Positions 1 through 23,356 of a stretch of 23,356 bases of DNA are shown here, in pieces. The notes under the pieces are model-generated. The model was not told where the DNA came from, did not search any database, and saw only the letters and a program-made list of their open reading frames with translations. Positions within the stretch are counted from its first letter, which is position 1. Each line of letters begins with the position of its first letter. The DNA lies in the IMG/VR virus record IMGVR_UViG_3300030106_000499, positions 1-23,356 of that record. The stretch is one strand, 5' to 3'. The stretch comes from a virus. Made by a program: the position numbers and the translations under genes.

Positions 1-1
1 A

Positions 2-865
2 GATGTAATCAATTTTTATGCAGGAGGTAATATTGCAGCTAGAATATCTGCTACTTCAGATTCTGATGGAGCAATTTATGCTGAAAAATATTATACTTGG
101 ATAGATGATACAAATACTCATATTGTTGGGGCTTCAGATGTAATGACATTTACTACTGGAGGTTATAATAGATTAGAACTTAACTCTAATGGGGCAGAAT
201 TAAAAAACGGTAGTGATTACTGGTATGCTCCTAGTGGAGGAGGGTACACTTGGGCAACGGACACTGATACTGGTTTTAACTTACAGTCTGCTGACCTCTT
301 AAATATTATTACTAATAATTCAATTAGAATACAAGTAGGGGCACAATCAATAGGAGTTACTAAGTCAGATGGTTCCACTCAGAATGTAAGTGTAGTGGCG
401 GAGATAAGCGGAGGAATTATAACTAATAATACCAGTTCCAGCTATTTTGCATCCGTTAGACCTATTGCAGATGATACTTATAGTTTAGGTGGGGGTTTTT
501 ATAGATGGGACAATGTCTATGCAACAAATGCCACAATTCAAACATCTGATGTTAGAGAAAAAGAAAATATTAATAATACTAAATTAGGTTTAGATTTTCT
601 TAAAGATTTACGTCCTGTATCTTATGAATGGAAAAAGAAAAAAGATAACAAAACAAATCAAACTCACTATGGGTTAATTGCTCAAGAAGTAGTAGAATCA
701 TTAAAGAAACATGGAATAGATTCTATAGAAGATTTTGGGGGTATTGTTCATGAAGGAGACCCTAAAGGTTTGTATGGGGCTAGATACGAAGAATTTGTAC
801 CAATCCTTATAAAAGCGGTACAAGAATTATCGGAAGAAATTAAACAATTAAAGGAGGACCAATAA
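2..865 (+). CDS. Tail fibre/spike C-terminal part with peptidase S74 chaperone domain (5' partial)
   Basis: The frame is open from base 2 with no stop, so the gene starts upstream of the window; the ATG at 143 is internal. The visible N-terminal part is a Ser/Thr/Asn/Gly-rich beta-type fibre sequence. From about base 545 it reads SDVREKENI, followed by GLDFLKDLRPVSYEW and HYGLIAQEV. This is the signature of the peptidase S74 (endosialidase-type) intramolecular chaperone, which trimerises the fibre and then cleaves itself just before the Ser of the S-D-x-R-x-K motif. That would release about 106 residues. The C-terminus (VPILIKAVQELSEEIKQLKE) is the usual short coiled coil. The protein probably forms a receptor-binding tail fibre or spike; the receptor cannot be inferred. 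The stop overlaps the next start (TAATG). Confidence 0.88.
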   Translation, partial: DVINFYAGGNIAARISATSDSDGAIYAEKYYTWIDDTNTHIVGASDVMTFTTGGYNRLELNSNGAELKNGSDYWYAPSGGGYTWATDTDTGFNLQSADLLNIITNNSIRIQVGAQSIGVTKSDGSTQNVSVVAEISGGIITNNTSSSYFASVRPIADDTYSLGGGFYRWDNVYATNATIQTSDVREKENINNTKLGLDFLKDLRPVSYEWKKKKDNKTNQTHYGLIAQEVVESLKKHGIDSIEDFGGIVHEGDPKGLYGARYEEFVPILIKAVQELSEEIKQLKEDQ

Positions 866-1059
866 TGGCAGACACTACAATAACTGTGACTTTTACAGAA
901 GCTCAATGGACAAGAGTTGTAGCAGCATCTTCATATATTAAAGGACCAATGGGTTCTGGCAATGTTGATGCGGATTTTTTTTCTACACTATGGAAAGAGA
1001 ATTTAACTAATCAAGTCAAAGCGTATGAAAAAGACCAAGCGTCAATCGCAGAGTTCTAA
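865..1059 (+). CDS. Small protein downstream of tail fibre, unknown function
   Basis: A 64-residue acidic-to-neutral protein with a good AAGGAGG Shine-Dalgarno 8 bases before the ATG. The start overlaps the stop of the fibre gene by one base, so translational coupling is likely. There is no signal peptide, membrane segment or recognisable motif. The sequence (TITVTFTEAQWTRVVAAS near the N-terminus) is soluble and probably partly helical. Position right after the fibre suggests a fibre-associated or small virion protein, but this rests on context only. Its last 35 bases are also the start of the next gene in another frame. Confidence 0.65.
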   Translation: MADTTITVTFTEAQWTRVVAASSYIKGPMGSGNVDADFFSTLWKENLTNQVKAYEKDQASIAEF

Positions 1060-1417
1060 AATTATACAGTATAGATATGATAACCCACATGATACTCTCC
1101 AACAGATTGGGGATGCATTTAATGTGTCTAGACAGTATGTATTCAAAGTACTAAAACAATTTGATATTCCTACTGTAAGGGCTAAAAAAATGAAAAATCC
1201 CAGACATTGTAAAATATGTGGGGAAATTAGTACAAAATTAGTACATGATGGCACCTGTCACTTTCAGTATTATAATCTAAAAATTAACTGTGCCACCTGT
1301 AGAATACCTTTTTATCGTAAACGTAGCCAGATAAAACAAGCGTATGAACAAGGGTTTACTTACAATTATTGCTCTCAAAGTTGTTATAGAAAAGGCAAAA
1401 GAGCCTTATCGGTGTAG
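1025..1417 (+). CDS. Helix-turn-helix protein with two zinc-binding clusters, putative regulator
   Basis: A 130-residue basic protein. Residues about 20-48 (DTLQQIGDAFNVSRQYVFKVL) form a helix-turn-helix of the sigma-region-4/ROK-like kind. Two cysteine clusters follow: C62-x2-C65 with C78-H79, and C89-x2-C92 with C116-x3-C120, both probable zinc sites. A C-terminal basic tail (RKGKRALSV) may contact DNA. The layout suggests a DNA-binding regulator; an HNH-like nuclease is an alternative but I see no convincing H-N-H residues. It lies immediately upstream of the phage sigma factor, which supports a role in transcription control. The first 35 bases overlap the preceding gene and there is no clear Shine-Dalgarno, so the exact start is uncertain. 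Confidence 0.7.
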   Translation: MKKTKRQSQSSKIIQYRYDNPHDTLQQIGDAFNVSRQYVFKVLKQFDIPTVRAKKMKNPRHCKICGEISTKLVHDGTCHFQYYNLKINCATCRIPFYRKRSQIKQAYEQGFTYNYCSQSCYRKGKRALSV

Positions 1418-1425
1418 ATAAATAT

Positions 1426-1443
1426 TATAATATCTGATATAAT
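1426..1443 (+). promoter_or_regulatory. Candidate promoter: two TATAAT boxes before the sigma gene
   Basis: The 90-base gap before the sigma gene has two perfect TATAAT boxes, at 1426-1431 and 1438-1443. No convincing -35 is visible. They differ from the AGTATAAT elements elsewhere because the second reads TGATATAAT. A host-type or early promoter for the sigma gene is plausible, but the surroundings are AT-rich and the match could be partly chance. Confidence 0.45.
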
Positions 1444-1466
1444 ATTACTTATAGATTTCCATAATC

Positions 1467-1482
1467 GAATCTTACGAGATTC
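1467..1482 (+). promoter_or_regulatory. Perfect 6-bp hairpin upstream of the sigma gene
   Basis: GAATCT and AGATTC form a perfect inverted repeat around the loop TACG. No T-run follows on the + strand, so it is not a typical terminator. It sits in the probable 5' untranslated region of the sigma gene or serves as an operator. Its core is almost identical, in reverse orientation, to the hairpin at 22310-22327. Confidence 0.45.
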
Positions 1483-1507
1483 CAAACAATCCTAGTAGAA
1501 TAACGAT

Positions 1508-2137
1508 ATGGAAATTAATAATGATTTAGTAATACAGTGGGAACCTAAAGTCCAAAAAATGTCTTCCTCAGCATTTATAGTAGGAATGGACAAAGAGGAT
1601 TTAGCTCAAGAGCTAAGAATTTCTTTACTTAAGGCGGCAAAAGCTTATGATGAAGGTAGAGGCATTTCTTTTCATACTTATTTACATACATCTTTAGTCA
1701 ATACAATCAGAACACTAATTAGTAAAGCTCAAAGAAGACCTATTCCTAAGAGCATAGATGATTATTATGAGTTTTCTGATAATGACAATCCTGTTATACC
1801 CAAAGAAATTCAGACTGCTTTAAGGGCAAATGATAATTACGCCCAAGAAATTGAGCTCGATTTGTTAGTTTCGTCACAACACATGTCAAAAAGAGAACGT
1901 AAATTCTTAAAGTTAAAGTTTGAAGGTCTTACTATGGATGAAATAACAGATGACTTGAGAGCATGTAGAATATGTATTTATTGTTTAGGGTTCAGAACAG
2001 AAGAAAATCAATTAGGAGTACCTGATTTTTCAAAATGTTTAGATAAACAAGGGGAAGGGGCTTATAAAATTAGAAACGCACTAAGAGAAAAATTTAGGTG
2101 GTTAGATGAAAAGTTTGAAAAAGACTCTGATTCTTGA
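1508..2137 (+). CDS. Phage-encoded RNA polymerase sigma factor (sigma-70 family) with Cys cluster in region 4
   Basis: A 209-residue protein. Residues 29-76 match sigma region 2: DLAQELRISLLKAAKAYDEG, then a G-x-x-F-x-T-Y stretch, then NTIRTLISKAQRR, which in sigma-70 proteins binds core polymerase and melts the -10 box. After an acidic linker, residues about 127-150 (MSKRERKFLKLKFEGLTMDEITDDL) start region 4, but the recognition part is interrupted by a cysteine-rich stretch, C153-x2-C156-x2-C159 and C177, before a final helix (YKIRNALREKFRWL). The cluster could bind zinc. The protein probably redirects host RNA polymerase to phage promoters; the repeated AGTATAAT elements are candidate targets. 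No strong Shine-Dalgarno precedes the ATG. The 3' end overlaps the next gene by 32 bases. Confidence 0.8.
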   Translation: MEINNDLVIQWEPKVQKMSSSAFIVGMDKEDLAQELRISLLKAAKAYDEGRGISFHTYLHTSLVNTIRTLISKAQRRPIPKSIDDYYEFSDNDNPVIPKEIQTALRANDNYAQEIELDLLVSSQHMSKRERKFLKLKFEGLTMDEITDDLRACRICIYCLGFRTEENQLGVPDFSKCLDKQGEGAYKIRNALREKFRWLDEKFEKDSDS

Positions 2138-2606: not shown

Positions 2607-2778
2607 AGTTATTGCTTCAAAGAATGACAATACTGACATTTGGACTGAAGGACAGTTTGATACAGTTGAGGAAGCTATAAATTATCTTGACAAGATAGAT
2701 ACGTCTAATGTAACATACAATGTATATTCAGATTCAAACAGGGTAATATATACCAAACAAGGAGGAGTAAGTGCCTAG
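2530..2778 (+). CDS. Small protein with basic N-terminus, unknown function
   Basis: An 82-residue protein. An AGGAG Shine-Dalgarno (about 2519-2523) is well placed before the ATG. The N-terminal 25 residues are strongly basic (PRRKKVRGRLIQKQKKQ), followed by an alpha/beta part with FDTVEEAINYLDKI and NVYSDSNRVIYTKQ, which looks like a compact small domain. No known family is recognised. The first 77 bases overlap the end of the preceding gene in another frame, and the last bases overlap the GTG start of the helicase gene. Confidence 0.6.
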   Translation: MPRRKKVRGRLIQKQKKQPKLEKKVKVIASKNDNTDIWTEGQFDTVEEAINYLDKIDTSNVTYNVYSDSNRVIYTKQGGVSA

Positions 2779-4033
2779 TCCGGAATTTATTGAATCCGCA
2801 GTAATCTTTAATTTAAATACAGAAGGTAATTTACATAATTTTAAACACGTCAAGAATGATTTTGCTAAACATGGAGAAGCATTTGATTGGTTAGTAACTT
2901 ATTTTGATAAACATGGGGAGTTTCCTTCTCAGATTGTTTTAGAGCAACAGTTTCCTAGCTTAGACTCTAAAGCCAGTGATACAAATTTTGATTATGCGTA
3001 TGAACAATTTAAGCGTTCTTTATTACAAAGAAATGTATTAAGGGCGGTTAATTCTAATTCTAATTTAATTTTTGATGACCCTAAGAAAGCTTTGTCTAAC
3101 ATAATGTCAGGGCTAACAGACATCGAAACTGTGTATGACGAAGATGTCATGCCTTATGATAGTGGGGAATTGACTAGATTAGAAGAATGGAAGAATAGAA
3201 AACAAAGAAGAAAGTTGGGGGATGGCTTAATGGGCATTCCTACTAGTTTTGATTCTTTGAACTCTAGAGGGGTCGGGTGGATGCCCGGAGAATTAATAGC
3301 AGCTTTTGCTAGACCTACAATTGGTAAAACATGGCTTTGTGTTCATGCCGCTGCTACTGCAGTAAAGGCGGGGCATAGAACGTTATTAATTTCTACCGAA
3401 ATGCCTAATCGTGCTATAAACATGAGAATTGATGTAGTGTTAGCAAAACTATATGACTATGAATTTTCTCATATGGCATTACGGCATGGAGAACCTATAA
3501 ATGAAGCTGACTATAGAGACTTTTTAGAAACATCTAACCAAAAAGATTTGTTGGTAAGTGACCATATTGCAGGTCAGATGGGTTTTTCATTAGAGTCTAT
3601 TGCTAGTTTAGTCAGAAAACATAAACCAGAGTTTGTTGTGATTGACGGTGTATATTTGATTTCCGCAGGGGATTCAAAATCAGCGGCTTGGGAGCAGTCA
3701 CACAGATTGTTTTATGGATTAAAAAATCTAGCTACTGCAATAAATACACCGATATTAGTTACTACCCAAGCTAACAGAGAGGCTTCGGATATGTTTACTC
3801 CGCCAAAGCCTAATCATGTAGCATTTGGAGATGCTTTGATTAGAGCTGCAGACGTGGCATTAGCCATGTGTGGGGTGGAGGATGAAGACGATAAAAGAAT
3901 GGTTCAATTCCAAAAGTATCGTGATGGCGATTTATCACAGAACATAGCCTACATGCAGTGGGGAGTAAACACGGGAGACATAAGAGAGCTACAAGGATAT
4001 ACCCCACGATTCCTTATGCTCGCAGAAGAATAG
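2771..4033 (+). CDS. Replicative DNA helicase, DnaB-like
   Basis: A 420-residue protein starting with GTG, supported by the GGAGGAG Shine-Dalgarno just upstream. Residues ~1-120 resemble the helical N-terminal domain of DnaB helicases. The C-terminal RecA-fold domain begins near residue 150 and shows GWMPGELIAAFARPTIGKTW, with Walker A A180 to T187. The catalytic Glu lies in LISTEM (E210) and Walker B in EFVVIDGVYLI (D292). TTQANRE (331-337) matches the DnaB-type motif that follows Walker B, where QxN-type residues sense nucleotide or DNA. It should unwind the fork as a hexamer ahead of the phage polymerase, together with the primase encoded two genes downstream. Walker A has Ala-Arg-Pro instead of the more usual Gly-rich start, as in many DnaB proteins. 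Confidence 0.9.
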   Translation: MPSPEFIESAVIFNLNTEGNLHNFKHVKNDFAKHGEAFDWLVTYFDKHGEFPSQIVLEQQFPSLDSKASDTNFDYAYEQFKRSLLQRNVLRAVNSNSNLIFDDPKKALSNIMSGLTDIETVYDEDVMPYDSGELTRLEEWKNRKQRRKLGDGLMGIPTSFDSLNSRGVGWMPGELIAAFARPTIGKTWLCVHAAATAVKAGHRTLLISTEMPNRAINMRIDVVLAKLYDYEFSHMALRHGEPINEADYRDFLETSNQKDLLVSDHIAGQMGFSLESIASLVRKHKPEFVVIDGVYLISAGDSKSAAWEQSHRLFYGLKNLATAINTPILVTTQANREASDMFTPPKPNHVAFGDALIRAADVALAMCGVEDEDDKRMVQFQKYRDGDLSQNIAYMQWGVNTGDIRELQGYTPRFLMLAEE

Positions 4034-4043
4034 GAGGATAGTA

Positions 4044-4235
4044 ATGGGACTTTTAGATTGGTTTGGAAGTAGCGATGATAGCAATATTGTTGTGAAATCT
4101 ACAAGAAGCAAGGGAGATGGTAGACCAATGATTGAGATTACTGTAGGAGATATTAGAAAAGGTATTGCTACAGATGAAAATGGTTACCGAAATGAAGTAG
4201 TTCTGTTCCTTAGAAAAAACAAAAGGGATAGATAG
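4044..4235 (+). CDS. Small hypothetical protein between helicase and primase
   Basis: A 63-residue protein with an AGGAGG Shine-Dalgarno that overlaps the helicase stop codon. It starts MGLLDWFGSSDDSN and ends in a basic KNKRDR. The middle (RPMIEITVGDIRKGIATDENGY) suggests a small beta-rich fold. Not recognised. Its TAG stop shares a base with the GTG start of the primase, so the two are probably translationally coupled. Confidence 0.65.
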   Translation: MGLLDWFGSSDDSNIVVKSTRSKGDGRPMIEITVGDIRKGIATDENGYRNEVVLFLRKNKRDR

Positions 4236-5110
4236 TGGTAGATTGGTACTCTGTATTAACAAAATATGGGGTTGATGTACCTTACGAAGAGCAGGTGATG
4301 ATTAGCTGCCCTTTTCATGATGACAGAAGAGTTTCGTGTTCTTTAAATTTAGATTTAGGATTGTGGATTTGTTTTGCCGGTTGTGGTCAGGGCAGTTTGA
4401 AAGGATTTATATTTAAACTTTCTGGAAAGTCTTGGGAAGAATTAAGTTACGAATTAGATGATAACTTAGATATACAATCTACAGAACTTGATTCTGTTTT
4501 TTTAGAGCAAGAATTAGAAGATGGATACCGAGAAGTAGGTTACGAAGAACCTGAAAACTTAATGGAAGTGCCTAACAACCATTGGATATATGACCGAGGC
4601 TTTACAAAACAATTAGTATTAGAGTGGGATTGTAAAGTAAATCAATATTTAGACTTTATGATTCCAGCTAAAAATGCAGATAATGAAGTTCTTGGTTGGA
4701 TTTCTAGGCGTTTACAAGCTATTCCTAAGTATTTATTTTCTAGGGGATTCAAAAAGTCACAAACGTTGTTCGGTATAAACCACATAAAAGAAGAGCAAGA
4801 ACTTTATATAGTAGAAGGTGCTTTAGATTGTATGTGGCTACAGCAGCATGGCTATGCTAGTGTTGGCGTTTTAGGGGCTAATCTTTCAAAAAAACAAATT
4901 GACTTGTTAGGTGAAATTAATCCATCACGAGTAGTGTTAGCGTTAGATAATGATGATGCTGGTGGTAAAGGTATGCAAAAAGCTACGCTTGACATCAATG
5001 AACGTTTCTTGATATCATACTTAAGACTACCAAAAAAATATAAAGACGTTCAAGAAATCCGAGATGTCGAGACGTTACGTACGGTATTACAAAATAAAAC
5101 AATAATATAA
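4235..5110 (+). CDS. DNA primase, DnaG-like (CHC2 zinc finger plus Toprim)
   Basis: A 291-residue protein starting with GTG. The N-terminus has a zinc-finger arrangement C25-P-F-H28 and C46-x3-C50, as in CHC2 primases, where it reads the template. The Toprim domain has the conserved Glu in LYIVEGALDC (E194) and the acidic pair in VVLALDNDDAGG (D238, D240), which hold catalytic metals. It should make RNA primers for phage DNA replication. At 291 residues it is much shorter than bacterial DnaG and lacks a recognisable C-terminal helicase-binding domain. The helicase is encoded separately just upstream, unlike the fused T7 primase-helicase. Confidence 0.88.
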   Translation: MVDWYSVLTKYGVDVPYEEQVMISCPFHDDRRVSCSLNLDLGLWICFAGCGQGSLKGFIFKLSGKSWEELSYELDDNLDIQSTELDSVFLEQELEDGYREVGYEEPENLMEVPNNHWIYDRGFTKQLVLEWDCKVNQYLDFMIPAKNADNEVLGWISRRLQAIPKYLFSRGFKKSQTLFGINHIKEEQELYIVEGALDCMWLQQHGYASVGVLGANLSKKQIDLLGEINPSRVVLALDNDDAGGKGMQKATLDINERFLISYLRLPKKYKDVQEIRDVETLRTVLQNKTII

Positions 5111-5122
5111 TAGGAGATTTAA

Positions 5123-5806: not shown

Positions 5807-5811
5807 GTTAC

Positions 5812-7947
5812 ATGACAATTGTAACTCCGGAAAACTCAAACGAGCAGTTACATCTGTTGATGGAACGCTTGCATAAAGATTCTGTTGTTGTTATAGATGT
5901 AGAGACCACTGGTTTAGAAGTACATGATGGAGATTTTGTTTGTGGTATTGGCGTTGCCCAATTAGATAGCGATTTTTCTCAGTATTATCCTGTAGCTCAT
6001 AACCACAACTGTGAAGTTGAGCGTAAGAACAAGAAACAGAAAGAGCTAGAAGAACGGCTTATTTGTGATGAGTGGTGTAAAGACGGTAAGTATGAAAACG
6101 TTGACCCTGTAATCATAGAATCTTTTATTAACATATTAAATGATAGTTTTTTTGTTAGTACCTTTATTGGTCACAACTTAAAATTTGACCTACATTTTTT
6201 ATCTAAACTTGGTTTAAGTGTTGGTAATAGAAAACTGATTGACACATTAGTTATGACTAGGCTTACCGAACCTAAATCTGATGAAAACGTTGGTATAGGT
6301 CTGACGGCAACAGCCCAAAGAAGATTTGGTAAAGAAGCGGGTCAGTATGATATAGACCTCAAAACTACCATGAAGCAAAAAAAGTGGGTTGGTAAATTAG
6401 GATGTGATTGCCATGAAGGTATTGATGAGAACGAGAAACCAGTCGACCTTGGACATGGTGGATATGACCGAGCACCTATTAATTTAGTAGGTCCTTACTG
6501 TGAACAAGATGTTTTAGTAACAGCAAAGCTTTATAACAACTGTTTAAAAAAGATAACTAATACAAATCAGAATCGTATCTATGAATTGCAATGTCAGTTG
6601 ACTAAGACTTTGTTTGACATGGAGGGGCGTGGTATTGGTATAGATGATTCTTATGCTAGGACAGCTAAGAGTGCTATTCAATTTAGACAGCAGAAGGTTG
6701 AACGACAAATTTATAAATTAGCAGGTAAAGAGTTTGATATTCTAAGTCCTAAACAGGTTGGGGAAGTCTTAAATGGTATGAACCCTCCGATACATTCTCC
6801 TGTAAAGACTCCAAAGGGTGAGGAATCGTGGAATGAGGCGGCACTGATAAATATTGACCATAGAATTGCTGGATTGATTAGACAATATAGAAGTCTGGCA
6901 AAGCTTATATCTACGTATTTACAACCTTATATTAAGAAGAATGTAAAGCATACACAGTTTTATAATTGGGGAACTTCTACTGGAAGGTTATCTAGTCAGA
7001 GTCCTAACTTTCAAAACATTCCAAGAAATCATTTTAATTTAGAAGAACATGAATTGTCTGATACAGAGAAGGCAGATATTAGGGGTAAGATTTCAGCAAT
7101 GATTTCACAAAAAGGTATTGTTGCTACTCAAGAACTTTCCGATGATGTGTTATCTACTTGGGCTTATATTGGAGATGAGTCCTATAATGAAGAAAATGAT
7201 GCTCAGGTATCAATAAGAAGATTATTTATTCCACGTAAGGGTTATAAGTTGGTAGGATTTGACTATCAACAAATGGAAGTTCGTGTTTTTATGTCCTACT
7301 TTAGGAATAAAACTATTGATGAGATACTAAACAAAGATGATGTAGACTTTCATAGTGAGGCAGCCAAGCTTGCCTTTGGTATTGATGAGTCACATGACCG
7401 ATTTAAAGAGTTTAGGCAGTACGCTAAGGCGGTAACTTTCGGTACTATTTACGGTATAGGCAACAAAAAGTTGGCTCAACAGCTAAGTACCACACCACAA
7501 GAAGCCGGAAAATTCAAGAAACAATACTTTCAAGGAATGAAAGGCTCAAAAGAATGGTTTGATAAAGTGGTTGCTACGGCTGGGCGGGGAGATATCTTGA
7601 TGAATCGTTATGGGCGAGTATATAGTATTGACCCTAGATTTGCATATAAAGGTGTGAATTATATGGTACAAGGTACTAGTGCTGACTTATTGACCGAAAG
7701 AATGATAGAAGTAGACAAATACCTTGCTGATAAGAAAAGTCATATATTAGTACAGGTTCATGACGAAATTATATGTGAGATACATGAATCTGAGTTAGAG
7801 ACTATACCTTATGAGATACAAACTTTACTAGAGCAGAACTCTAAAAACATACCTTTGAAAGTAGATATGGAAGTCTTTACTCCTTCTTGGGCGACCAAAA
7901 AAGAATTGAAGCCTGTATCCATGGAAGATTATATTGACTGGGACTAA
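5812..7947 (+). CDS. polA: DNA polymerase, family A, with 3'-5' proofreading exonuclease
   Basis: A 711-residue family A polymerase. The proofreading domain shows Exo I D29-x-E31 (VIDVETTGL), Exo II in HNLKFD (N122, D126) and Exo III Y229-x3-D233. The polymerase domain has TSTGRLSSQSPNFQNIPR (about 388-405), motif A in LVGFDYQQMEVR (D484), motif B R535-x3-K539-x3-F543-G-x2-Y547-G, and motif C QVHDE (H650-E652). There is no 5'-3' exonuclease domain, as usual for phage enzymes. F543 aligns with E. coli Phe762, a residue linked in viral ecology studies to phage lifestyle. Unusual inserts are the charged, Cys-containing stretch at about 64-95, CDCH near 198-201, and about 60 residues (408-468) between the QNIPR motif and motif A. 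The Shine-Dalgarno is weak. Confidence 0.95.
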   Translation: MTIVTPENSNEQLHLLMERLHKDSVVVIDVETTGLEVHDGDFVCGIGVAQLDSDFSQYYPVAHNHNCEVERKNKKQKELEERLICDEWCKDGKYENVDPVIIESFINILNDSFFVSTFIGHNLKFDLHFLSKLGLSVGNRKLIDTLVMTRLTEPKSDENVGIGLTATAQRRFGKEAGQYDIDLKTTMKQKKWVGKLGCDCHEGIDENEKPVDLGHGGYDRAPINLVGPYCEQDVLVTAKLYNNCLKKITNTNQNRIYELQCQLTKTLFDMEGRGIGIDDSYARTAKSAIQFRQQKVERQIYKLAGKEFDILSPKQVGEVLNGMNPPIHSPVKTPKGEESWNEAALINIDHRIAGLIRQYRSLAKLISTYLQPYIKKNVKHTQFYNWGTSTGRLSSQSPNFQNIPRNHFNLEEHELSDTEKADIRGKISAMISQKGIVATQELSDDVLSTWAYIGDESYNEENDAQVSIRRLFIPRKGYKLVGFDYQQMEVRVFMSYFRNKTIDEILNKDDVDFHSEAAKLAFGIDESHDRFKEFRQYAKAVTFGTIYGIGNKKLAQQLSTTPQEAGKFKKQYFQGMKGSKEWFDKVVATAGRGDILMNRYGRVYSIDPRFAYKGVNYMVQGTSADLLTERMIEVDKYLADKKSHILVQVHDEIICEIHESELETIPYEIQTLLEQNSKNIPLKVDMEVFTPSWATKKELKPVSMEDYIDWD

Positions 7948-7955
7948 AAAACTGC

Positions 7956-7964
7956 TAGTATAAA
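7956..7964 (+). promoter_or_regulatory. AGTATAAA promoter element, predicted leaderless start of DUF3310 gene
   Basis: TAGTATAAA lies in the 23-base gap after polA; its last base is six bases before the ATG at 7971. A TTGACT at 7934-7939 could serve as a -35 with a long 19-base spacer. A transcript starting the usual 6-8 bases after the box would begin at or next to the start codon, and there is no Shine-Dalgarno. Confidence 0.6.
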
Positions 7965-8243: not shown

Positions 8244-8448
8244 TGCCCATTTAGGGTTTACATTTAGAGTAGGTCCACTAGACCAAAATCAATATGGTAG
8301 AGTAGATTTGACTGTAGACCAAATAGATACAGAAATTCCAATAGAACCACAGTTAGAAGATTCTAAAAAAGTAGCTGATGTTGTGTGGGAATTTATAAAA
8401 GGAAAGGTAGATGCTCAAATAGAGGATATGTTAGATGACAGTAAATAA
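8230..8448 (+). CDS. Small hypothetical protein in the nucleotide-metabolism cluster
   Basis: A 72-residue acidic protein. I chose the ATG at 8230 (MPKVSAHLGF) because AAAGGAG lies about six bases upstream; the ATG at 8227 is too close and the earlier ATG at 8188 lies deep inside the DUF3310 gene without a good site. The sequence looks like a beta-strand-rich start followed by an amphipathic helix (SKKVADVVWEFIKGKVDAQIEDML). No family is recognised. It overlaps the genes on both sides by 14 bases, which implies translational coupling. Confidence 0.65.
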   Translation: MPKVSAHLGFTFRVGPLDQNQYGRVDLTVDQIDTEIPIEPQLEDSKKVADVVWEFIKGKVDAQIEDMLDDSK

Positions 8449-8695
8449 TTCCTCTGAAAGAGCTATTGTCCTTGAAGCTGTTTTAGCTGAACGTGAACGT
8501 CAAGACGCATCTTTTGGTGAACAAAATCATGATGATTCTTGGTGGAATCTATTATTGACACAAAAACATGGTAAAGTAACCGAAGAAATTTTTGGTTATA
8601 GTGATACTAAATTATTTATTGAAATTGTTCAGACCTGTGCTACTTATTTTGCATGGGCGGAAGCAATAAGAAGGAGAATAAAGAATGGAAAATAA
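8435..8695 (+). CDS. MazG-like protein with altered metal-binding motif
   Basis: An 86-residue protein that reads ERERQDASFGEQNHDDSWWNLLL near its N-terminus, typical of small phage MazG-like nucleotide pyrophosphohydrolases. It is followed by a C-terminal helix LFIEIVQTCATYFAWAEAIRRR, equivalent to the usual E-L-V-Q-x-A-A-x-A-x-A-W. In the family, the first helix carries E-E-x-G-E metal ligands. Here the corresponding segment reads QKHGKVTEE (43-51), so several acidic ligands appear replaced or shifted. It may be a divergent or inactive enzyme, or a binding protein. If active it would hydrolyse (d)NTPs. It overlaps its neighbours by 14 and 11 bases. Confidence 0.62.
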   Translation: MTVNNSSERAIVLEAVLAERERQDASFGEQNHDDSWWNLLLTQKHGKVTEEIFGYSDTKLFIEIVQTCATYFAWAEAIRRRIKNGK

Positions 8696-9638
8696 TGCTG
8701 AAGAAGCTATAGAAAATTTACTAAAAAAGAAATCTTTAAAGTTTATTAGAGGTGATAGTGACACATTTGTTAATAATAGAATACCTTTTGATATTCCTGT
8801 TCTAGATAAACTTACTGGTGGTGGTATTCCATTTAAGAAAATGACTCTTATATATGGTCCAACTAATGTAGGAAAGTCTTATTTAGCGTCTCAAATAGTG
8901 GCTAATGCTCAGAAAATAGGCGGTAAAGCTGTATGGGTAGATACCGAGTTATCTTATGATAAAGACTGGATGGAAAGATGTGGGGTTGATAATTCCAAAA
9001 TATTAGTTTCACAACCTACTACCGGAGAAGAAGCCATGGACCATGTTAGAGAAGCAATGCAAGAAGGCTTTGAGGTTATCGTATTAGATAGTATTGCCGG
9101 CTTAATACCAGCTGCTATTTCAGAAGAAGTTGCTAAAGGTGACTTTGCTCATAGTCCGATGGCTTGGCAAGCAAGATTTGTAAACAGTTCTTTTCCCAAA
9201 CTTTTCCCCTACTTACAGAATGGTTCGGCTTTTGTAGCTATAAACCAAGTACGTGCTAGTATGGGGCCTGTAGCATTAGACAATATGCCTGCGGGCCAAG
9301 GACAAGTTTATTTTGCTCATTCTATATTACAAGTCCAAAGAAAAGGTTGGATAGAAGAGAAGGACAAAAAGGTTGGATTTAATATGAACATTAGACTTAG
9401 GAAGACCAAGACTGGAGGAGAAAATTGGGATTCTGCCATAGTTCCATTCAGAGTTGAAGGCGGGATTGATGTTGTTGAAAGTTATATTAGAGATGGTATT
9501 GACCAAAAAATAATTACTCAATCAGGTGCATGGTATACATATGGTGATGTAAAAGTTATGGGTATGAATGGATTGAAAGAAAAGTTTGTTGAAGATGAAA
9601 AATTGTTTGAAAAACTAAAAGATGAACTTACCTCCTAG
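8685..9638 (+). CDS. RecA/UvsX-like recombinase
   Basis: A 317-residue RecA-fold ATPase. Walker A is GPTNVGKS (58-65), the catalytic Glu is in AVWVDTELSYD (E88), and Walker B is VIVLDSIAGLIP (D135). FVAINQVRASMG (183-194) fits the RecA L2-adjacent N-Q-[IV]-R motif. The segment from about 145 to 165, EEVAKGDFAHSPMAWQARFV, occupies the place of the DNA-binding L1 region. It should form filaments on single-stranded DNA and drive strand exchange, serving repair and recombination-dependent replication. It is shorter than E. coli RecA (about 350) and lacks its acidic tail. The following genes encode two nucleases, a coiled-coil protein and a RuvC-like resolvase, which fit one recombination pathway. 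Confidence 0.9.
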   Translation: MENNAEEAIENLLKKKSLKFIRGDSDTFVNNRIPFDIPVLDKLTGGGIPFKKMTLIYGPTNVGKSYLASQIVANAQKIGGKAVWVDTELSYDKDWMERCGVDNSKILVSQPTTGEEAMDHVREAMQEGFEVIVLDSIAGLIPAAISEEVAKGDFAHSPMAWQARFVNSSFPKLFPYLQNGSAFVAINQVRASMGPVALDNMPAGQGQVYFAHSILQVQRKGWIEEKDKKVGFNMNIRLRKTKTGGENWDSAIVPFRVEGGIDVVESYIRDGIDQKIITQSGAWYTYGDVKVMGMNGLKEKFVEDEKLFEKLKDELTS

Positions 9639-14264: not shown

Positions 14265-16199
14265 ATGATATTAAAAAATAAAATAAAAACACGTACAGAA
14301 GATAAATCTACAATCACAGACCAAGCAGAAGTTATTTTAGCTCACCGATATTATTTAAAGGATACTGATGGAGATGTAATTGAAAATTCGTCTCAACTTT
14401 TTTCTAGGGTAGCTTTGGCTGTTGCTAGTATTGATACACAGTATGGTAAACTCCCTGTAGATGCTCAATTAACTGAAAAAGATTTTTATACAATTATGTC
14501 TAATTTAGAGTTTGTTCCTAACTCTCCAACTTTAATGAATGCCGGTACAGAACAAGGAACTCTTTCAGCGTGTTTTGTATTACCTTTAGAAGATAGTATG
14601 GAAGGAATAATGAAAGCAGCACACGATGCAGCAATGGTCCAAAAATTTGGTGGTGGAACAGGATTTGCTTTGTCTAAGTTAAGGCCTAAAGGGGACAGAA
14701 TTAAATCTACTCATGGGATTGCTTGTGGTCCTATAGAAGTACTAAAGACACTTTCAAGAGTGTCTTCTATGATTACACAAGGAGGAAAAAGGGATGGTGC
14801 TAACATGGCAGTGATGTCTATTTATCATCCAGACATATTAGATTTTATCGATTGTAAAAAAGTTGAAGGTGAAATACACAACTTTAACATTTCAGTTGGG
14901 GTTGATTCTAATTTCATGAAAGCTGTAGAAGGCAACATGGATTATAATTTAATTAATCCTAAAACCAATGAAGTTGCTGGGTCACTTAATGCCCGAGAAG
15001 TATTTGACAAAATAGTTTATGGGGCTTGGAGAAATGGTGAACCCGGAATGATATTCTTAGACCAAGTAAACAAAGACAACCATGTAAAAGAAACTTATGG
15101 TGAGATGATTGCAACTAATCCTTGTGGCGAACAACCGTTGCTAGGTAATGAATCATGTAATTTAGGGTCTATAAACTTAGCTAAATTTTATAAGAAAGCT
15201 GAAAAAGCCCATGCGTTTGGTTGGAAAGCAGAAATAGATTGGGCTCGGCTTGAATGGGTAACAAGAAAGTCTGTTCACTTTTTAGATAATGTCATAGATG
15301 CTAATAAATATGCAACCGCAGATATTGAAGAAATGACAAAGGCAACTCGAAAGATTGGTTTAGGCATTATGGGTTTTGCTGACTTATTAATACAAATGCA
15401 AATACCATATGAGTCGCAACTTGCAAGAGATGCCGGAAGTAAAATAATGAAATCTGTTAGAGAATGGGCAGATGATGAGTCTAAGCAACTAGCTAAATCT
15501 AGAGGAGCTTTCCCAGCGTGGGAAGATAGTAATTACGATAAACAAACAGAAGTCTACAGAAATCATTGTAGACTAACAGTTGCTCCAACAGGAACTATTT
15601 CGATGATAGCTGATACATCTAGTGGTATAGAACCTACATTTGCGTTGGCTTGGAAAAAACAAAACATACTAGAAGGTAAGACTTTAAATTACGTAAACAA
15701 GTATTTTGAGCAAGATGCTAGAAAGCATGGTTTTTATTCAGAAGATTTAATGGACTACTTGGCAGAAGGTGGCTCTTTGGCTACTGTACCCGAAGTTCCA
15801 GAGTGGGCTAAAGCAGTATATGCTACAGCACCGGAAATATCTCCAGATGACCATGTTCTTATGCAAGCAGCATTTCAAGAAGCTTGTGATTCGGGTATCT
15901 CTAAAACAATTAATTTCCCGAACTCTGCTACTAAAGAAGATGTAGAAGACGCTTATATGTTAGCGTGGAAAGAAGGGTGTAAGGGAATTACAGTCTATAG
16001 GGCGGGCAGTAGAGAAAAAGAAGTTCTTGTAAAAGGTAATGCAGACAAATCAAAGCAACCAACCTTAGATGGTTTTGAGTTAGAAGAACAAATGTTAGAA
16101 TCTAACCACGATTGTGATTGCGGTTCTCCTAACATAGTTTTTGAATCTGGGTGTGAGACTTGTAAGACCTGTGGATGGAGTGCCTGTTTAATTTCATAG
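14265..16199 (+). CDS. nrdJ: Class II (adenosylcobalamin-dependent) ribonucleotide reductase
   Basis: A 644-residue protein. LSACFVLPLEDSMEGI holds the first redox Cys (C103), and NPCGEQPLLGNESCNLGSIN holds the N285, C287, E289 active-site triad and the second redox Cys (C298). FGGGTGFALSKLRP is the substrate/phosphate-binding stretch. The C-terminus is cysteine-rich (C617, C619, C630, C633, C636, C641), like the tail that re-reduces the active site in NrdJ/NrdZ proteins. No nrdB-like small subunit is encoded nearby, which fits class II. It makes deoxyribonucleotides for phage replication using vitamin B12 supplied by host or environment. An AGGAG Shine-Dalgarno precedes the ATG. Its location inside the packaging-head module is unusual. 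Confidence 0.94.
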   Translation: MILKNKIKTRTEDKSTITDQAEVILAHRYYLKDTDGDVIENSSQLFSRVALAVASIDTQYGKLPVDAQLTEKDFYTIMSNLEFVPNSPTLMNAGTEQGTLSACFVLPLEDSMEGIMKAAHDAAMVQKFGGGTGFALSKLRPKGDRIKSTHGIACGPIEVLKTLSRVSSMITQGGKRDGANMAVMSIYHPDILDFIDCKKVEGEIHNFNISVGVDSNFMKAVEGNMDYNLINPKTNEVAGSLNAREVFDKIVYGAWRNGEPGMIFLDQVNKDNHVKETYGEMIATNPCGEQPLLGNESCNLGSINLAKFYKKAEKAHAFGWKAEIDWARLEWVTRKSVHFLDNVIDANKYATADIEEMTKATRKIGLGIMGFADLLIQMQIPYESQLARDAGSKIMKSVREWADDESKQLAKSRGAFPAWEDSNYDKQTEVYRNHCRLTVAPTGTISMIADTSSGIEPTFALAWKKQNILEGKTLNYVNKYFEQDARKHGFYSEDLMDYLAEGGSLATVPEVPEWAKAVYATAPEISPDDHVLMQAAFQEACDSGISKTINFPNSATKEDVEDAYMLAWKEGCKGITVYRAGSREKEVLVKGNADKSKQPTLDGFELEEQMLESNHDCDCGSPNIVFESGCETCKTCGWSACLIS

Positions 16200-16930: not shown

Positions 16931-18871
16931 ATGAAATTATCTGAATATATGCCTCAAGTCCCCCAAATGCAGCAGCAAATGGCGGACTTAAATAAACAAA
17001 TAAGTTTATTAGATGTAATGAAAGCTACAGGGGACACAGGAAGTGCTCCTACTGTTGGATTAGACCAAATAGTAAATACATGGGTACGTCATCAAATGGC
17101 GTATCGCCAACAATTGGTTCAAGATTTACAGACTGTTGTTATGTCTGTAGAAGAAATTAGAGGACCTTTATCGCATATAACAGGTGAAGTTTTTAGACGT
17201 GGTATTGAAATAATACCTACAGTAGAAAATGCCGACAAAGAACAAACAACTAAATTAAAAAACTGGTTAGATGATTGTAATGTCTTTGACCAAAGTTTAG
17301 AAGAAGTACTTAGGCAATTTCATATGGATTTAAATTCTTTAGACGATGCTTTTTTGTATATGGCTAAAGAATATAAAGACGAAGGAAACGGGAAAGTTAC
17401 TTCTAGATTACAAGAGATTAGAAGATTAAATCCAGCACTTGTAGAATTTGATTTAGACCAAGCGGGGTTACCTAAGAATGCACATTGGATATGCCCAATT
17501 GAGAGAACTGACGTAGCTGAAGGACCGGGTAAGTCTGAAAAAGGTTTAGAAAGAATACCTGCGATGTATAAATATTATCACAGAAATCAACACATGTATT
17601 TTACAGATGATGAAATTATACATTTATCAAAATTTTCACCTTCTGAAACTTATGGCTGGTCACCAATACTTACTATATTTGAAAAGGCACTAACCTTAAT
17701 TGGTATGGATAAAAACCTTTATCGTTTCTTTTATGAAAGAAAAATGCCTGCGTCAATGATTATGGTAACTACAGATGACCCAGAGAGTCTACGAAGAGAA
17801 AGAGAACATATTGCAGCTCAAACTCGATTAGACCCTAACTATGTTCCTATGGTAGCAGTCTCAGCAAGAAACCAAAGAGGTAGGGTGGACATGGTGAGAC
17901 TGTTCCACACCTTACAGGAAATGGATTATTTACCTGTACGAGAAGAAATTAGAGAACGTGTAGCTGCTATGTGGGGTGTTACTCCAGCATGGCAAGGTGC
18001 TCCTGATGCGTTTGGAGGTATGTCATCACAAACTCAACAATTAGTTGTTATGAGTCGTGTTGTCGAAGGAGACCAAAGACTAATACGTGAGAAAGTTTTC
18101 CCAAGAATCTTAAAGGCTTTTGGAATAACTGACTATGAATTACAGTTACCACAGCCAGAAGAAAAGGCTGAAAACACTAGAATTTCTTTTGCTCAACAAA
18201 AGATAGCTATTGCTAATCAATTTTCTCAATTAGGTTTTGATGTAAAACTAAAAGAACAAGATGTCCCATTTTGGGAAGCTGACTTTATTGTTAGCGGAGA
18301 ACCAGTACCTACAGCACAAATGCAAGCAGAACAAACTGCTTTAGGTATTCAGCAGACTCGAAACGCTATGGAACAAGAAGAGCAACAACAACAGGCTATG
18401 GCTGAACAACAAGCTGCTGCCACTGAAGAAGGTCCGATAGCTCCCGAAGAAGAAGGTGCCGAACCGATTCAAGCTATGCAAAAAGCTTACAAGCCACCTT
18501 CACAGAGAAAGTTTAAAGGCAGAACTGGTGGAGTAACTCCAGATTGGTCTGATAAACACCCCGATGAAGAACGAGATATTGATGCTTATACCGAAGCAAG
18601 AGAAAAAAATGAATTAACTTTATCTAAAACTTGGATTGAATCTTTAAGTGAGAAAGGCTTTACGTCTCCTTTAATAAAAGAAGTTTCTTCTGATATGTCA
18701 CAAATGTGGTTTGAACAAAACAATGTTGATTATATTGCTCAATTGGCTGGAGACAGTGTAACTACAGTTGAAAAAGCTATATTTGGTGATGCAACTAGAT
18801 TCAGTAGATATAAACAAACTGGTAATAGGAAGCCTACAGAACCAACAAAAATTGAATTAGACGATGAGTAA
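16931..18871 (+). CDS. Portal protein
   Basis: A 646-residue protein. The core (about 55-470) carries recognisable portal features: VMSVEEIRGPLSHITGEVFR near the N-terminus, LDDAFLYMAKEYK, DDEIIHLSKFSPSETYGWSP followed by ILTIFEKALTLIGMDKNLY, and FFYERKMPASMIMV. This is typical for the wing and stem of HK97-type portal proteins. WGVTPAWQGAPDAFGGMSSQ fits the late portal segment that shapes the crown. Residues about 470-520 are Gln/Glu/Ala-rich, followed by a hydrophilic C-terminal extension of about 130 residues not needed for a portal fold. It forms the dodecameric DNA gate at one capsid vertex and docks the terminase. Confidence 0.85.
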   Translation: MKLSEYMPQVPQMQQQMADLNKQISLLDVMKATGDTGSAPTVGLDQIVNTWVRHQMAYRQQLVQDLQTVVMSVEEIRGPLSHITGEVFRRGIEIIPTVENADKEQTTKLKNWLDDCNVFDQSLEEVLRQFHMDLNSLDDAFLYMAKEYKDEGNGKVTSRLQEIRRLNPALVEFDLDQAGLPKNAHWICPIERTDVAEGPGKSEKGLERIPAMYKYYHRNQHMYFTDDEIIHLSKFSPSETYGWSPILTIFEKALTLIGMDKNLYRFFYERKMPASMIMVTTDDPESLRREREHIAAQTRLDPNYVPMVAVSARNQRGRVDMVRLFHTLQEMDYLPVREEIRERVAAMWGVTPAWQGAPDAFGGMSSQTQQLVVMSRVVEGDQRLIREKVFPRILKAFGITDYELQLPQPEEKAENTRISFAQQKIAIANQFSQLGFDVKLKEQDVPFWEADFIVSGEPVPTAQMQAEQTALGIQQTRNAMEQEEQQQQAMAEQQAAATEEGPIAPEEEGAEPIQAMQKAYKPPSQRKFKGRTGGVTPDWSDKHPDEERDIDAYTEAREKNELTLSKTWIESLSEKGFTSPLIKEVSSDMSQMWFEQNNVDYIAQLAGDSVTTVEKAIFGDATRFSRYKQTGNRKPTEPTKIELDDE

Positions 18872-19595: not shown

Positions 19596-19907
19596 ATGTT
19601 GAACTCACAAACATTGTATGATAATCTATGTTCTAAATGTAGAGGTCATATGTATATAAACGAAGATGAGGACTTACAGTGTTTTACTTGCGGTAAAATA
19701 TTAGTAGTCACAGTGCGGAGGCATTATGATACCACAAATAGCTCACTTAGAAATAAAAAAGAAGAGAGCACTAGGCTGGACATGGACCAAGCTGGCAAAG
19801 TGGCTAGAAGAAGAGTATGGAACGAAAGTTCATCGAACAACCATTCAAAGATGGTACGACAAACAGGTTTGGGAGGACAGTCTCGAGGACTCACCTGCGG
19901 GAGATAA
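19596..19907 (+). CDS. Small zinc-ribbon ORF overlapping the phosphoesterase gene
   Basis: A 103-residue frame with a GGGAG Shine-Dalgarno. It shows C12-x2-C15 and C29-x2-C32 (LCSKCRGHMYINEDEDLQCFTCGK), a clear zinc ribbon. After about residue 44 the frame overlaps the well-supported phosphoesterase gene for 182 bases and becomes Ser/Arg/Asn-rich without pattern (KKEESTRLDMDQ and so on). The zinc-ribbon part is convincing. The rest may be a real dual-coded tail, or the ribbon may be joined to the next frame by frameshifting. The function may be nucleic-acid binding. Confidence 0.55.
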   Translation: MLNSQTLYDNLCSKCRGHMYINEDEDLQCFTCGKILVVTVRRHYDTTNSSLRNKKEESTRLDMDQAGKVARRRVWNESSSNNHSKMVRQTGLGGQSRGLTCGR

Positions 19908-21048
19908 TCTATCTGACCGAATAAAGTTAGACAAAAAAGTTGCAACACATAAAAGTGAAGCCAATTTTTATAAAAAACTTTATCAACAATCCTTAAAAGA
20001 AAATACTAAACAAGAACTTATTGTTGAAACTATACAAGAGTTTACTAAAGCATTTCCTGCTGTTCCCTTAAAACATCTAGACAAAACCGAAAAGACTCCT
20101 TTTGGCCATCAAAAACAAATTATGGTCACCCCTTTATCCGATACTCACATAGGGGAACATGTTTATAAAGAACAAATGAGAAACTTGAATGAGTATAACT
20201 TTGAAATATTTAATAGACGTATGTATGGCTGGGCTAACCAAATAATAAAACATGCTACATACCGAAGACAAATAGCTCCTGTAGACGAATTAATTATTCC
20301 TATGTTAGGTGATATGATTAGTGGGGACATACATGAAGAGTTAGCTAGGTCTAATATGGCTAATTGTATGGAACAAATGATTAGAGGAGCTAGTATTATT
20401 GGACAAGCTTTAATGTATTTAGCACCTCATTTTACAAAAATCAGAGTTCCTTGTGTGGTTGGTAATCATGGAAGAATGACTCGAAAGCCGCCTATGAAAG
20501 ATAAGTATATGGATTGGGACTATATGCTTTATCAATGGCTGGCAGCATTTTGTAGAAACCAAGAAAACATAGAGTTTCATATCCCACGTAGTTTTATGAC
20601 TACATTTAAAATACACGATAAAGTCGTTCTTATAATGCATGGAGATTCTATATCGGGTGCTGGTAGTAGTGGTGCTATTACAGGTGCTATAACTAAATTA
20701 CGAAGTGTATTTCAATATCGAAAGGCTTTGCAAAGAGAAATAGAAGATTCCTTAGATGATGATTCAGAGATAGAGTTTGATAGTGTTATGATTGGTCATT
20801 TTCATAGGATAGATGAAATAGATATAGGTACTGGTGAGTTACATATATGCGGAACTATGAAAGGACCGGATGAATTTGCTATGCAAAGGCTTCATGCAGC
20901 GACTAAACCTAAACAATTAGTTACTTATTGGCATCCAAGATATGGTTATGTAGGTAAAGATGTTATTTATTTAAATCGTTATGATACAAGCAAACGAAAG
21001 TTTATAGATAAGATTCCAGAGAAGTGGGTAGATTTTGTAGAATCTTAA
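19726..21048 (+). CDS. HTH-metallophosphoesterase fusion (calcineurin-like)
   Basis: A 440-residue protein. Residues about 7-48 are a helix-turn-helix (TWTKLAKWLEEEYGTKVHRT, TIQRWYDKQVW). A linker with a helix leads to a metallophosphoesterase domain: D139-x-H141 in PLSDTHIGE, GDMISGD (D196), GNHGR (N247, H248), LIMHGD (H305) and GHFHR (H358, H360). These are the five metal-binding motifs of the calcineurin/Mre11-like superfamily. The substrate could be DNA ends, nucleotides or phosphoproteins; the N-terminal DNA-binding-like domain favours nucleic acid. It starts at ATG with CGGAGG five bases upstream, inside the zinc-ribbon frame. Its place among head genes is notable; related proteins may be linked to packaging or DNA processing. 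Confidence 0.82.
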   Translation: MIPQIAHLEIKKKRALGWTWTKLAKWLEEEYGTKVHRTTIQRWYDKQVWEDSLEDSPAGDNLSDRIKLDKKVATHKSEANFYKKLYQQSLKENTKQELIVETIQEFTKAFPAVPLKHLDKTEKTPFGHQKQIMVTPLSDTHIGEHVYKEQMRNLNEYNFEIFNRRMYGWANQIIKHATYRRQIAPVDELIIPMLGDMISGDIHEELARSNMANCMEQMIRGASIIGQALMYLAPHFTKIRVPCVVGNHGRMTRKPPMKDKYMDWDYMLYQWLAAFCRNQENIEFHIPRSFMTTFKIHDKVVLIMHGDSISGAGSSGAITGAITKLRSVFQYRKALQREIEDSLDDDSEIEFDSVMIGHFHRIDEIDIGTGELHICGTMKGPDEFAMQRLHAATKPKQLVTYWHPRYGYVGKDVIYLNRYDTSKRKFIDKIPEKWVDFVES

Positions 21049-22335: not shown

Positions 22336-22346
22336 TTGAGTATAAT
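22336..22346 (+). promoter_or_regulatory. TTGAGTATAAT promoter element for scaffold/capsid genes
   Basis: TTGAGTATAAT, followed by G. Fifth copy of the AGTATAAT-type element. The transcription start would be near 22352, within the inverted repeat that follows, giving a leader of about 110 bases before the scaffold-like gene. No -35 at normal spacing is seen. Confidence 0.65.
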
Positions 22347-22349
22347 GTA

Positions 22350-22372
22350 ATAACGTTTAAATATAACGTTAT
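22350..22372 (+). promoter_or_regulatory. 8-bp inverted repeat at the predicted transcription start
   Basis: ATAACGTT (22350-22357) and AACGTTAT (22365-22372) form a perfect 8-bp inverted repeat with a seven-base spacer. It also contains the direct repeat ATAACGTT. It begins four bases after the TATAAT box, so it could be an operator for a dimeric regulator or a hairpin at the 5' end of the mRNA. Confidence 0.5.
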
Positions 22373-22386
22373 ATTTAGCTATAAAA

Positions 22387-22418
22387 AAAAGGTCGGAGGT
22401 GGCTTAGACCAACCTTTT
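22387..22418 (+). promoter_or_regulatory. Leader hairpin upstream of scaffold gene
   Basis: AAAAGGT (22387-22393) pairs with ACCTTTT (22412-22418), 7 bp, around an 18-base loop that holds GGAGGTGG. An alternative pairing is GGTC with GACC. The structure lies between promoter element and the true Shine-Dalgarno (AGGAGG at about 22444). It could be a terminator-like attenuator, a stabilising 5' hairpin or a translational control element. Confidence 0.45.
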
Positions 22419-22460
22419 ATGATAGCGTAAACAAACAAAATCATAGGAGGTTTAAAAACT

Positions 22461-23318
22461 ATGGCAGAGATAGATGAAAGGCTTGAAAAGCAGATGGAAG
22501 GCACTAATCTTGCTCTAGCCGCTGTAGCCGAAGTCCTACAAAAAATGGACGGAAGATTGGCTAAAGAGGCGGAAGAAGAGGAAGAAGAGATGGAAAAAGC
22601 TGCAATCGAAAAAGCCCAATCTGATTTGGTGAAATCTGTGGCTTCTGAAGTTGTTTCAATGCTAAAAGCTAGCGAAGGTGACAGTTATGCTGGAGCTGAT
22701 GTTAGTGGAGACGACAGAAAGGCTAGCCCTACAGGTAGTACACCACAAGACGCTGACGACTCAGAAAGCGATGCTGGAATCTCTTCTAAGATAGAAGACC
22801 AGCAAAACACAATTCAAGCAGCCCACATGGGTGATGACGAAGATGAAGTTGCAAAAGCTTATGAAAAAGGCTACGCAGCTGCAATGAAAAAAGAAAAAGA
22901 TGAAGATGAGGATGGTATGGAAAAGGCAGCTCATGGAGATGATGCTGACGATGAGGCTAAAGATGAGCCTAATACAGAGAAAGGTATGGACGAAGACGAT
23001 GATGACATGGAAAAAATGCAGAAGCAAATAGAGTCTTTGAAAAAGCAATTAGCTGAAACAGAGACAAGTATGCAGAAAGCAGTCCAAACAGAATCTGAAG
23101 CAAGATTAAGAAAGATGGGATTCAGAGAGGAGAATGGATTACAAGCTCCACAAAAGATTAATGGATTAGGAGTAGACGGTTCAGCACCTCTACAAAAATC
23201 CGCTGTCACTGATACCCCAGAGCAATTAGCTGAACTTTCTTACTCAGAGCTCAGAAGAATGCAACACCAAATAGAAACTGGTAACACCGATGGTGTTCCT
23301 AGGGAACTATTAGGATAA
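22461..23318 (+). CDS. Acidic scaffold-like head assembly protein
   Basis: A 285-residue, very acidic protein. The N-terminal ~70 residues are helical with an all-Glu stretch (EAEEEEEEMEKAAIEKAQ). The middle (75-185) is low complexity in Asp, Glu, Ser and Ala with repeated MEKAA/DDMEKM units. Residues ~185-220 (MEKMQKQIESLKKQLAETET) are a coiled coil, followed by a C-terminal tail (LSYSELRRMQHQIETGNTDG). Composition and the place directly before a new gene suggest a scaffolding protein around which the capsid assembles. No Ser-His protease motif is visible. A strong AGGAGG Shine-Dalgarno and a 110-base leader suggest high expression. Confidence 0.65.
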   Translation: MAEIDERLEKQMEGTNLALAAVAEVLQKMDGRLAKEAEEEEEEMEKAAIEKAQSDLVKSVASEVVSMLKASEGDSYAGADVSGDDRKASPTGSTPQDADDSESDAGISSKIEDQQNTIQAAHMGDDEDEVAKAYEKGYAAAMKKEKDEDEDGMEKAAHGDDADDEAKDEPNTEKGMDEDDDDMEKMQKQIESLKKQLAETETSMQKAVQTESEARLRKMGFREENGLQAPQKINGLGVDGSAPLQKSAVTDTPEQLAELSYSELRRMQHQIETGNTDGVPRELLG

Positions 23319-23346
23319 ACAAAACAAACTATAGGAGATTATAAAC

Positions 23347-23356
23347 ATGGCTAACC
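23347..23356 (+). CDS. Start of next gene, probably major capsid protein (3' partial)
   Basis: ATG at 23347 (Met-Ala-Asn, then cut off by the window end) with AGGAG at 23333-23337. Only three codons are visible, so the product is inferred from position directly after the scaffold-like gene, where the major capsid protein usually lies. Confidence 0.5.

Follow-up and report, generated by a model that had tools for sequence, protein, structure and literature searches.

Absence of GATC from a 23,356-bp contig of an uncultured tailed phage and repeated changes of GATC content within its family

Results

The stretch of DNA studied here, referred to as the window, comprises 23,356 bases and is the complete IMG/VR record IMGVR_UViG_3300030106_000499, a fragment of the genome of an uncultured tailed phage, and its most prominent feature is that it contains no GATC site. 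An exact search gave a count of zero on both strands, in agreement with a preceding sequence-only reading, which had also stated that dozens of sites would be expected by chance; in fact, three null models place the expectation at 53-57, namely 57.3 (standard deviation (SD) 7.3) in 100 dinucleotide shuffles, 53.1 under a second-order Markov model and 54.1 (SD 5.4) in 300 synonymous-codon shuffles, which took in 33 open reading frames (ORFs) and 7,780 codons, some of the ORFs overlapping. The codon shuffles never gave fewer than 40 sites, and among the 256 tetramers GATC displayed the lowest z score. The avoidance is also visible at the codon level, as that reading had noticed: aspartate codons preceding a C are GAC in 51 cases and GAT in none, against 381 GAT and 123 GAC before the other bases, and isoleucine codons following a G are never ATC (41 ATA and 37 ATT), a codon found at 30 of the 425 isoleucine positions that follow other bases. 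The lineage of the window has been under long and strong selection against GATC. Two further palindromes, GCGC (9.1 expected) and CGCG (4.5 expected), are absent from the window, and GGCC occurs 9 times against 23 expected. TAAG is low as well (82 against 150 expected).

The features of the window are collected in Table 1. The presence of a sigma-70 region 2-like protein would point to bacteria as hosts. A small ORF at positions 21052-21489 has, by eye, the look of a PD-(D/E)XK nuclease, with no Pfam match above the cut-off, and its homologue sits elsewhere in the genome of the relative L070. The three window proteins tried (terminase, polymerase and portal) pointed to no close cultured phage: the best terminase matches share ~25% identity over 40% (50,697 records searched), the best polymerase match in the cultured-phage search shares 26%, and the best portal matches belong to haloviruses, at ~27%. 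The earlier remark that the window holds no methylase is borne out for the 20 proteins scanned with Pfam or PHROGs, the other small ORFs lying outside that scan.

Table 1. Features of the window, with positions and the basis of each assignment
Feature	Positions	Strand	Basis
Stretch without GATC, GCGC, CGCG	1..23356	none	whole IMG/VR record, uncultured tailed phage
Tail fibre/tail spike-like protein, C-terminal part, cut by contig end	2..865	+	PHROG matches
Sigma-70 region 2-like protein	1508..2137	+	PF04542 above cut-off
DnaB-like replicative helicase	2771..4033	+	phrog_19
DNA primase	4235..5110	+	phrog_47
DNA polymerase (family A-like), left border of hypervariable slot	5812..7947	+	phrog_17, gene maps
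Hypervariable slot, polymerase to RecA-like gene	8244..8684	+	gene maps; boundaries approximate
UvsX/RecA-like recombinase, basis of family tree	8685..9638	+	phrog_97
DUF559 protein, weak Vsr match	9622..9927	+	PF04480
RuvC-like Holliday junction resolvase	11102..11560	+	phrog_159
Terminase_5 match, probably small terminase subunit	12080..12580	+	PF06056
Large terminase subunit, query that found relatives	12583..14241	+	phrog_38
Ribonucleotide reductase large subunit	14265..16199	+	phrog_84
Portal protein	16931..18871	+	phrog_18178
Exonuclease-like protein	19726..21048	+	phrog_284

Relatives were collected from IMG/VR contigs, most of them fragments, by terminase and RecA searches that each returned the best 80 matches; we presume the dataset numbers that form part of the contig names to denote samples, of marine origin. 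Removal of identical RecA genes left 122 representatives, whose state was assigned from the ratio of observed to expected GATC (zero below 0.05, plus above 0.4, low or intermediate in between). As the record of the window holds only 23,356 bases, a search at genome scale was made in the relatives, and GATC is likewise missing from the 81,555 bp of L070 (202 expected) and the 66,157 bp of L055 (138 expected). Among the best 80 terminase loci, 59 have no GATC, 3 have one to three sites and 18 stand at 0.4 of the expectation or above. The 122 representatives divide into 67 zero contigs, which have 3 GATC in 1,054,002 bases where 2,390 are expected; 46 plus contigs, in which 1,889 were counted and 2,508 are expected; and 9 low ones (53 against 195 expected). 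Exactly none was found in 60 of the 115 contigs for which at least 10 sites are expected. Both states occur within dataset 3300025131 (L070 zero, L063 plus), dataset 3300025141 (L039 zero, L227 plus) and dataset 3300024344 (L022 zero, L033 plus), and because they share single dataset numbers a library artefact is unlikely.

The GATC state changed at least 8 times on the RecA tree when intermediates are left out, the minimum being 10 on a tree of 101 rows; well supported branches alone force 6-7 changes for each state. Discordant neighbours illustrate this, since L238 carries 23 GATC of 30 expected beside L205 (0 of 52) and L216 (0 of 46), at 72% DNA identity. A subclade formed by L057, L159, L162, L163 and L165 has one to three sites in each member, as if recently released from avoidance. 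When six plus/zero pairs were aligned, the zero partner differed by one base at 119 of 164 GATC sites, as observed at 33 of 43 sites between L154 and L158 and at 37 of 56 between L032 and L035. The commonest replacements in zero contigs are GACC, the synonymous aspartate change also found in the window, and GGTC. In the full record of L264, a 14.8-kb GATC-free block (~34.0-48.9 kb) lies inside an otherwise GATC-bearing contig and therefore suggests exchange between the two kinds, possibly by recombination with a GATC-free relative, unless the assembly is chimeric.

Other palindromes behave in a similar manner. In 58 contigs of at least 12 kb, all 4- and 6-bp palindromes were tested for depletion (P <1e-4, partial cases included), and it was found for GATC in 40 contigs, GGCC in 18, TTAA in 15, GCGC in 12, CCGG in 4 and CGCG in 2, no other such palindrome being depleted in two or more contigs. 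GGCC, GCGC and CCGG, which are recognition sites of known Type II enzymes, reach zero or nearly so in part of the family, with normal counts in other members, and the states combine in many ways: 10 contigs are depleted in GATC with normal GGCC and GCGC, and 5 display the reverse. CCGG is wholly or almost wholly lost from L216 (0 of 26 expected), L205 (3 of 28) and L260 (0 of 16). For CATG, AGCT, GTAC, CTAG and TTAA no contig falls below 0.4 of the expectation, and the depletion of TTAA is taken as an effect of composition because the candidate host metagenome-assembled genome (MAG) shows it too (5,262 against 6,816 expected).

In order to understand why some members carry GATC, methylases and other accessory genes were sought. 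The hypervariable slot, which in the window holds small conserved ORFs and no accessory gene, contains AIPR, C5 methylase and other genes in relatives, some of which have what we take to be an HNH-like or nuclease-like look by eye. The D12/Dam profile PF02086 matched in none of 50 relative records, 18 of them GATC-bearing, and in none of a second, partly overlapping set of 50, of which 31 are GATC-bearing or low; among the GATC-bearing ones are contigs as long as 71.5 and 81.3 kb. PF05869 likewise matched in 0 of 50 relative records, and PF01555 in 1 of 50, the GATC-bearing L074, which alone has this N6/N4-type gene. A tblastn search with a Dam query found none in 219 family sequences; C5 methylases were found by tblastn, no C5 profile search having been made, in 8 of the 219, all GATC-free. 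A motif scan of 80 loci gave scattered short matches judged to be due to chance and one C5 candidate, in the GATC-free L039/L070. An own methylase as the reason for GATC in relatives was rejected for the parts sequenced, the records being fragments. Members with and without GATC alike retain the DUF559 gene, no single gene accounting for all GATC states was seen among the top 14 accessory clusters, and no residue in 17 gene clusters follows the state without exception, the best balanced accuracy being 0.92 (46 rows, without tree correction).

The top cluster of the accessory-gene scan is a gene of ~390 codons in the slot that matches the AIPR family (PF10592; 54 bits in one member, cut-off 25), and two phage members also gave a weak AbiU match in PADLOC. 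Each of the 7 GATC-bearing representatives of the sub-clade of the window that reach the slot has it, whereas over the whole tree the 59 zero and the 8 low representatives lack it, as do 35 further GATC-bearing ones in which the slot is covered. A search aimed at AIPR returned 13 loci, all GATC-bearing, 5 of them family records new to the set. The gene was gained independently at most 3 times on the tree, and once on well supported branches; its link with GATC is only a lead because the independent gains are too few for significance. Two members, L036 and L150, carry it broken into two ORFs. With regard to the N-terminal HEPN RNase domain that has been described for the family (PMC3506569), the structure model of the phage protein is of low confidence (predicted local distance difference test score (pLDDT) 61.7), with no fold match at E <=0.001 and no convincing solved structural relative. 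Among Dehalococcoidia, the homologue in L409 (positions 3206-8196) has a Type IIG restriction-modification (R-M) gene as its neighbour, and two of three strong homologues (L407 and L408) have, by eye, no obvious R-M neighbour.

Indications about the host come from nadA, the quinolinate synthase gene, which is present in L055 and L070, in a region that the window does not reach. The two phage NadA proteins are 75% identical to each other and, among the best 80 cellular matches, the nearest relative belongs to a Dehalococcoidia MAG of 31% G+C, at 72% identity; the next six relatives are also Chloroflexota. The nadA of the MAG lies in cellular surroundings, as judged by eye, the names of the genes around nadA in L300 being our assumption. 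In a quick tree the phage genes nest in Chloroflexota with Shimodaira-Hasegawa-like approximate likelihood ratio test (SH-aLRT) values of 100, 99 and 97, two rows having an odd letter make-up. The hosts are therefore probably Dehalococcoidia/SAR202-type Chloroflexota, as far as NadA sequences can indicate. Within the candidate host order, 51 of 197 genomes gave PF02086 matches above the cut-off, some of them partial, as did 11 of 76 genomes of the candidate host family. All five high-scoring genes checked match the Dam family; two of them (L383 and L384) adjoin a PDDEXK_11 / PD-(D/E)XK nuclease gene (PF20472), which makes these neighbours likely Type II R-M pairs, and one (L381) adjoins a match to a Type II nuclease model. 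No host was confirmed through TerL in GTDB contigs. A TerL profile gave 3 distant prophage-like matches (L432, L413 and L433; 32-35% identity), apparently prophage remnants, in 393 Dehalococcoidia-class genomes and none in 394 of an actinobacterial class, an empty result that is not informative alone, 3 against 0 being too few for significance. No tRNA that could serve as a host clue was present in 14 pieces, and tetranucleotide correlations with the host MAG (0.47-0.70) were not used, there being no comparison set.

Discussion

We consider it likely that the window derives from a tailed-phage lineage, probably of Dehalococcoidia/SAR202-type Chloroflexota, which has long replicated in bacteria that cut GATC. 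Every such site would expose incoming phage DNA to cutting, and mutants free of sites would consequently be favoured; for most losses a single base change suffices, frequently a synonymous one (GAT-C to GAC-C). Once a lineage passes to hosts that lack the enzyme, or becomes otherwise protected, the sites would return by mutation towards their random level, and the family would in this way become split into GATC-free and GATC-bearing lineages. The sequence-only reading had attributed the loss to a GATC-recognising restriction system; the selection is long, as stated there, and also strong, and a restriction enzyme is the best explanation for the selecting agent because the trait is nearly on/off, reverses repeatedly and is accompanied by the disappearance of GGCC, GCGC and CCGG from other members. 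The direction of each state change, the SAR202-like host and the enzyme concerned are likewise inferred; DpnII-like and DpnI-like action leave an indistinguishable loss of sites. That reading had also regarded GATC as a clue to the host, and of this an indirect indication survives, through the NadA of two relatives, the nearest host MAG having no Dam-type gene in the part examined.

Several observations weigh against restriction by such a host. The phages' own methylases do not account for the GATC-bearing relatives, the RecA tree has long branches (L047 and L272), most relatives are fragments, and the "close" plus/zero pairs are merely 71-79% identical in DNA. TTAA too has two levels among the members, though milder ones, of about 0.75 and of 1.0-1.2. 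No host is proven and no cognate GATC nuclease was found. In the nearest host MAG (G081), tblastn detected no Dam, C5 methylase, AIPR or TerL in 632 kb of ~0.9 Mb, and its sole PF02086 match is below the cut-off. Likewise, none of the 26 genomes of the candidate host family that are no larger than 1.5 Mb has an intact PF02086 match above the cut-off, the only one that scores above it being broken by stops.

Chance, base composition, codon use or an assembly or library artefact have a negligible probability and are refuted for the window by the three null models, as well as by the occurrence of both states within single datasets and by 3 sites against 2,390 expected over 1.05 Mb. Methyl-directed mismatch repair, with MutH acting on unmethylated or hemimethylated GATC, or effects of the Dam/SeqA type, may also select against this site. 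To our knowledge, MutH is confined to certain proteobacteria, and the likely host belongs to Chloroflexota. Counterselection by MutHLS is disfavoured because mismatch repair would touch GATC alone and does not explain the members in which GGCC, GCGC and CCGG are at or near zero; the depleted words are all 4-bp palindromes, and Type II restriction therefore fits better. We regard this alternative as improbable, even though GATC is missing from phiX174 and MutHLS has been proposed to select against it in enterobacteriophages (PMC5014478). Still more improbable is that the phage itself codes for a GATC-cutting nuclease which destroys host or rival DNA, its own genome being kept site-free instead of methylated. 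Such a role would agree with the nuclease-like appearance of slot genes in several members, with the conserved DUF559 gene and with accessory clusters confined to GATC-free contigs. However, two of the nuclease-like genes have no Pfam nuclease match, the DUF559 gene is present in both states, the clusters confined to GATC-free contigs are in a minority (the commonest, c35, occurs in 10 of the 60 GATC-free contigs that span its place when low rows are counted as GATC-bearing), no residue of the 17 clusters follows the state perfectly and the slot of the window has no accessory gene.

It may also be hypothesized that the host enzyme is present throughout and that the GATC-bearing members are shielded by a phage-coded factor such as AIPR, which we consider unlikely. 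The distribution of this gene, found in each GATC-bearing sub-clade representative that reaches the slot, in none of the zero and low ones and at 13 loci that all bear GATC, is what such a factor would display. Furthermore, genes of this family are common in R-M operons, DndB is related to it (PMC2292703, PMC3506569), and one Dehalococcoidia homologue adjoins a Type IIG enzyme. On the other hand, the 35 GATC-bearing representatives without AIPR, the few gains, the split gene in two members and the two Dehalococcoidia homologues with no obvious R-M neighbour argue against it, and a change of host explains the GATC-bearing members equally well. That the phage AIPR represents a new kind of anti-restriction factor, whose gain would allow cutting at GATC to be tolerated and the sites to return, is accordingly put forward as a doubtful proposal. 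If true, the slot would amount to a reservoir of counter-restriction genes that can replace one another, and the site content of a genome would record the counter-defences carried.

Apart from its cause, the family offers a natural experiment, in which phages that share core genes have repeatedly switched GATC content and lost other 4-bp palindromes. From site content it could become possible to read which host defences uncultured phages have met in the past, and the set points at a phage group for Dehalococcoidia/SAR202; low-G+C streamlined SAR202 are known (PMC11994032). Among the literature matches listed, there was no earlier report on this phage family and no title on an isolated Dehalococcoidia/SAR202 phage.

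Avoidance of restriction sites is already known, and to it this family adds a sharp new example, whose on/off history is unusually clean. In the survey of prokaryotic viruses of PMC6286503, where GATC is treated as a restriction recognition site, it is under-represented in all 46 phages with hosts that code for the corresponding Type IIM enzymes, and the window resembles these phages in that a short palindromic restriction site is under-represented in phage DNA. In contrast to that survey, in which hosts and enzymes are known, the host here is a probable one and the enzyme a putative one; the count is zero in contigs as long as 81.5 kb, and a single family shows repeated changes of state. The phage-borne AIPR, which matches the AIPR/AbiU1 family (PF10592; PMC3506569, PMC2292703) above the cut-off in some GATC-bearing relatives, differs from the members described in those reports in lying in a variable slot of a phage genome with no evident R-M partner. 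Another parallel is the depletion of GANTC in pelagiphages (PMC9516812), marine phages of one host group that are also split by clade into site-poor and site-normal groups and for which the cause is likewise unsettled in the account given there. That case concerns another motif and 33 published genomes, whereas the likely host here belongs to Chloroflexota and the depletion extends, in different members, to as many as four other 4-bp palindromes. Finally, phiX174, considered in PMC5014478 together with counterselection in enterobacteriophages, is completely devoid of GATC, as is the window; in the present family, unlike in the cases treated there, the avoidance is not of GATC alone and the likely host is no enterobacterium.

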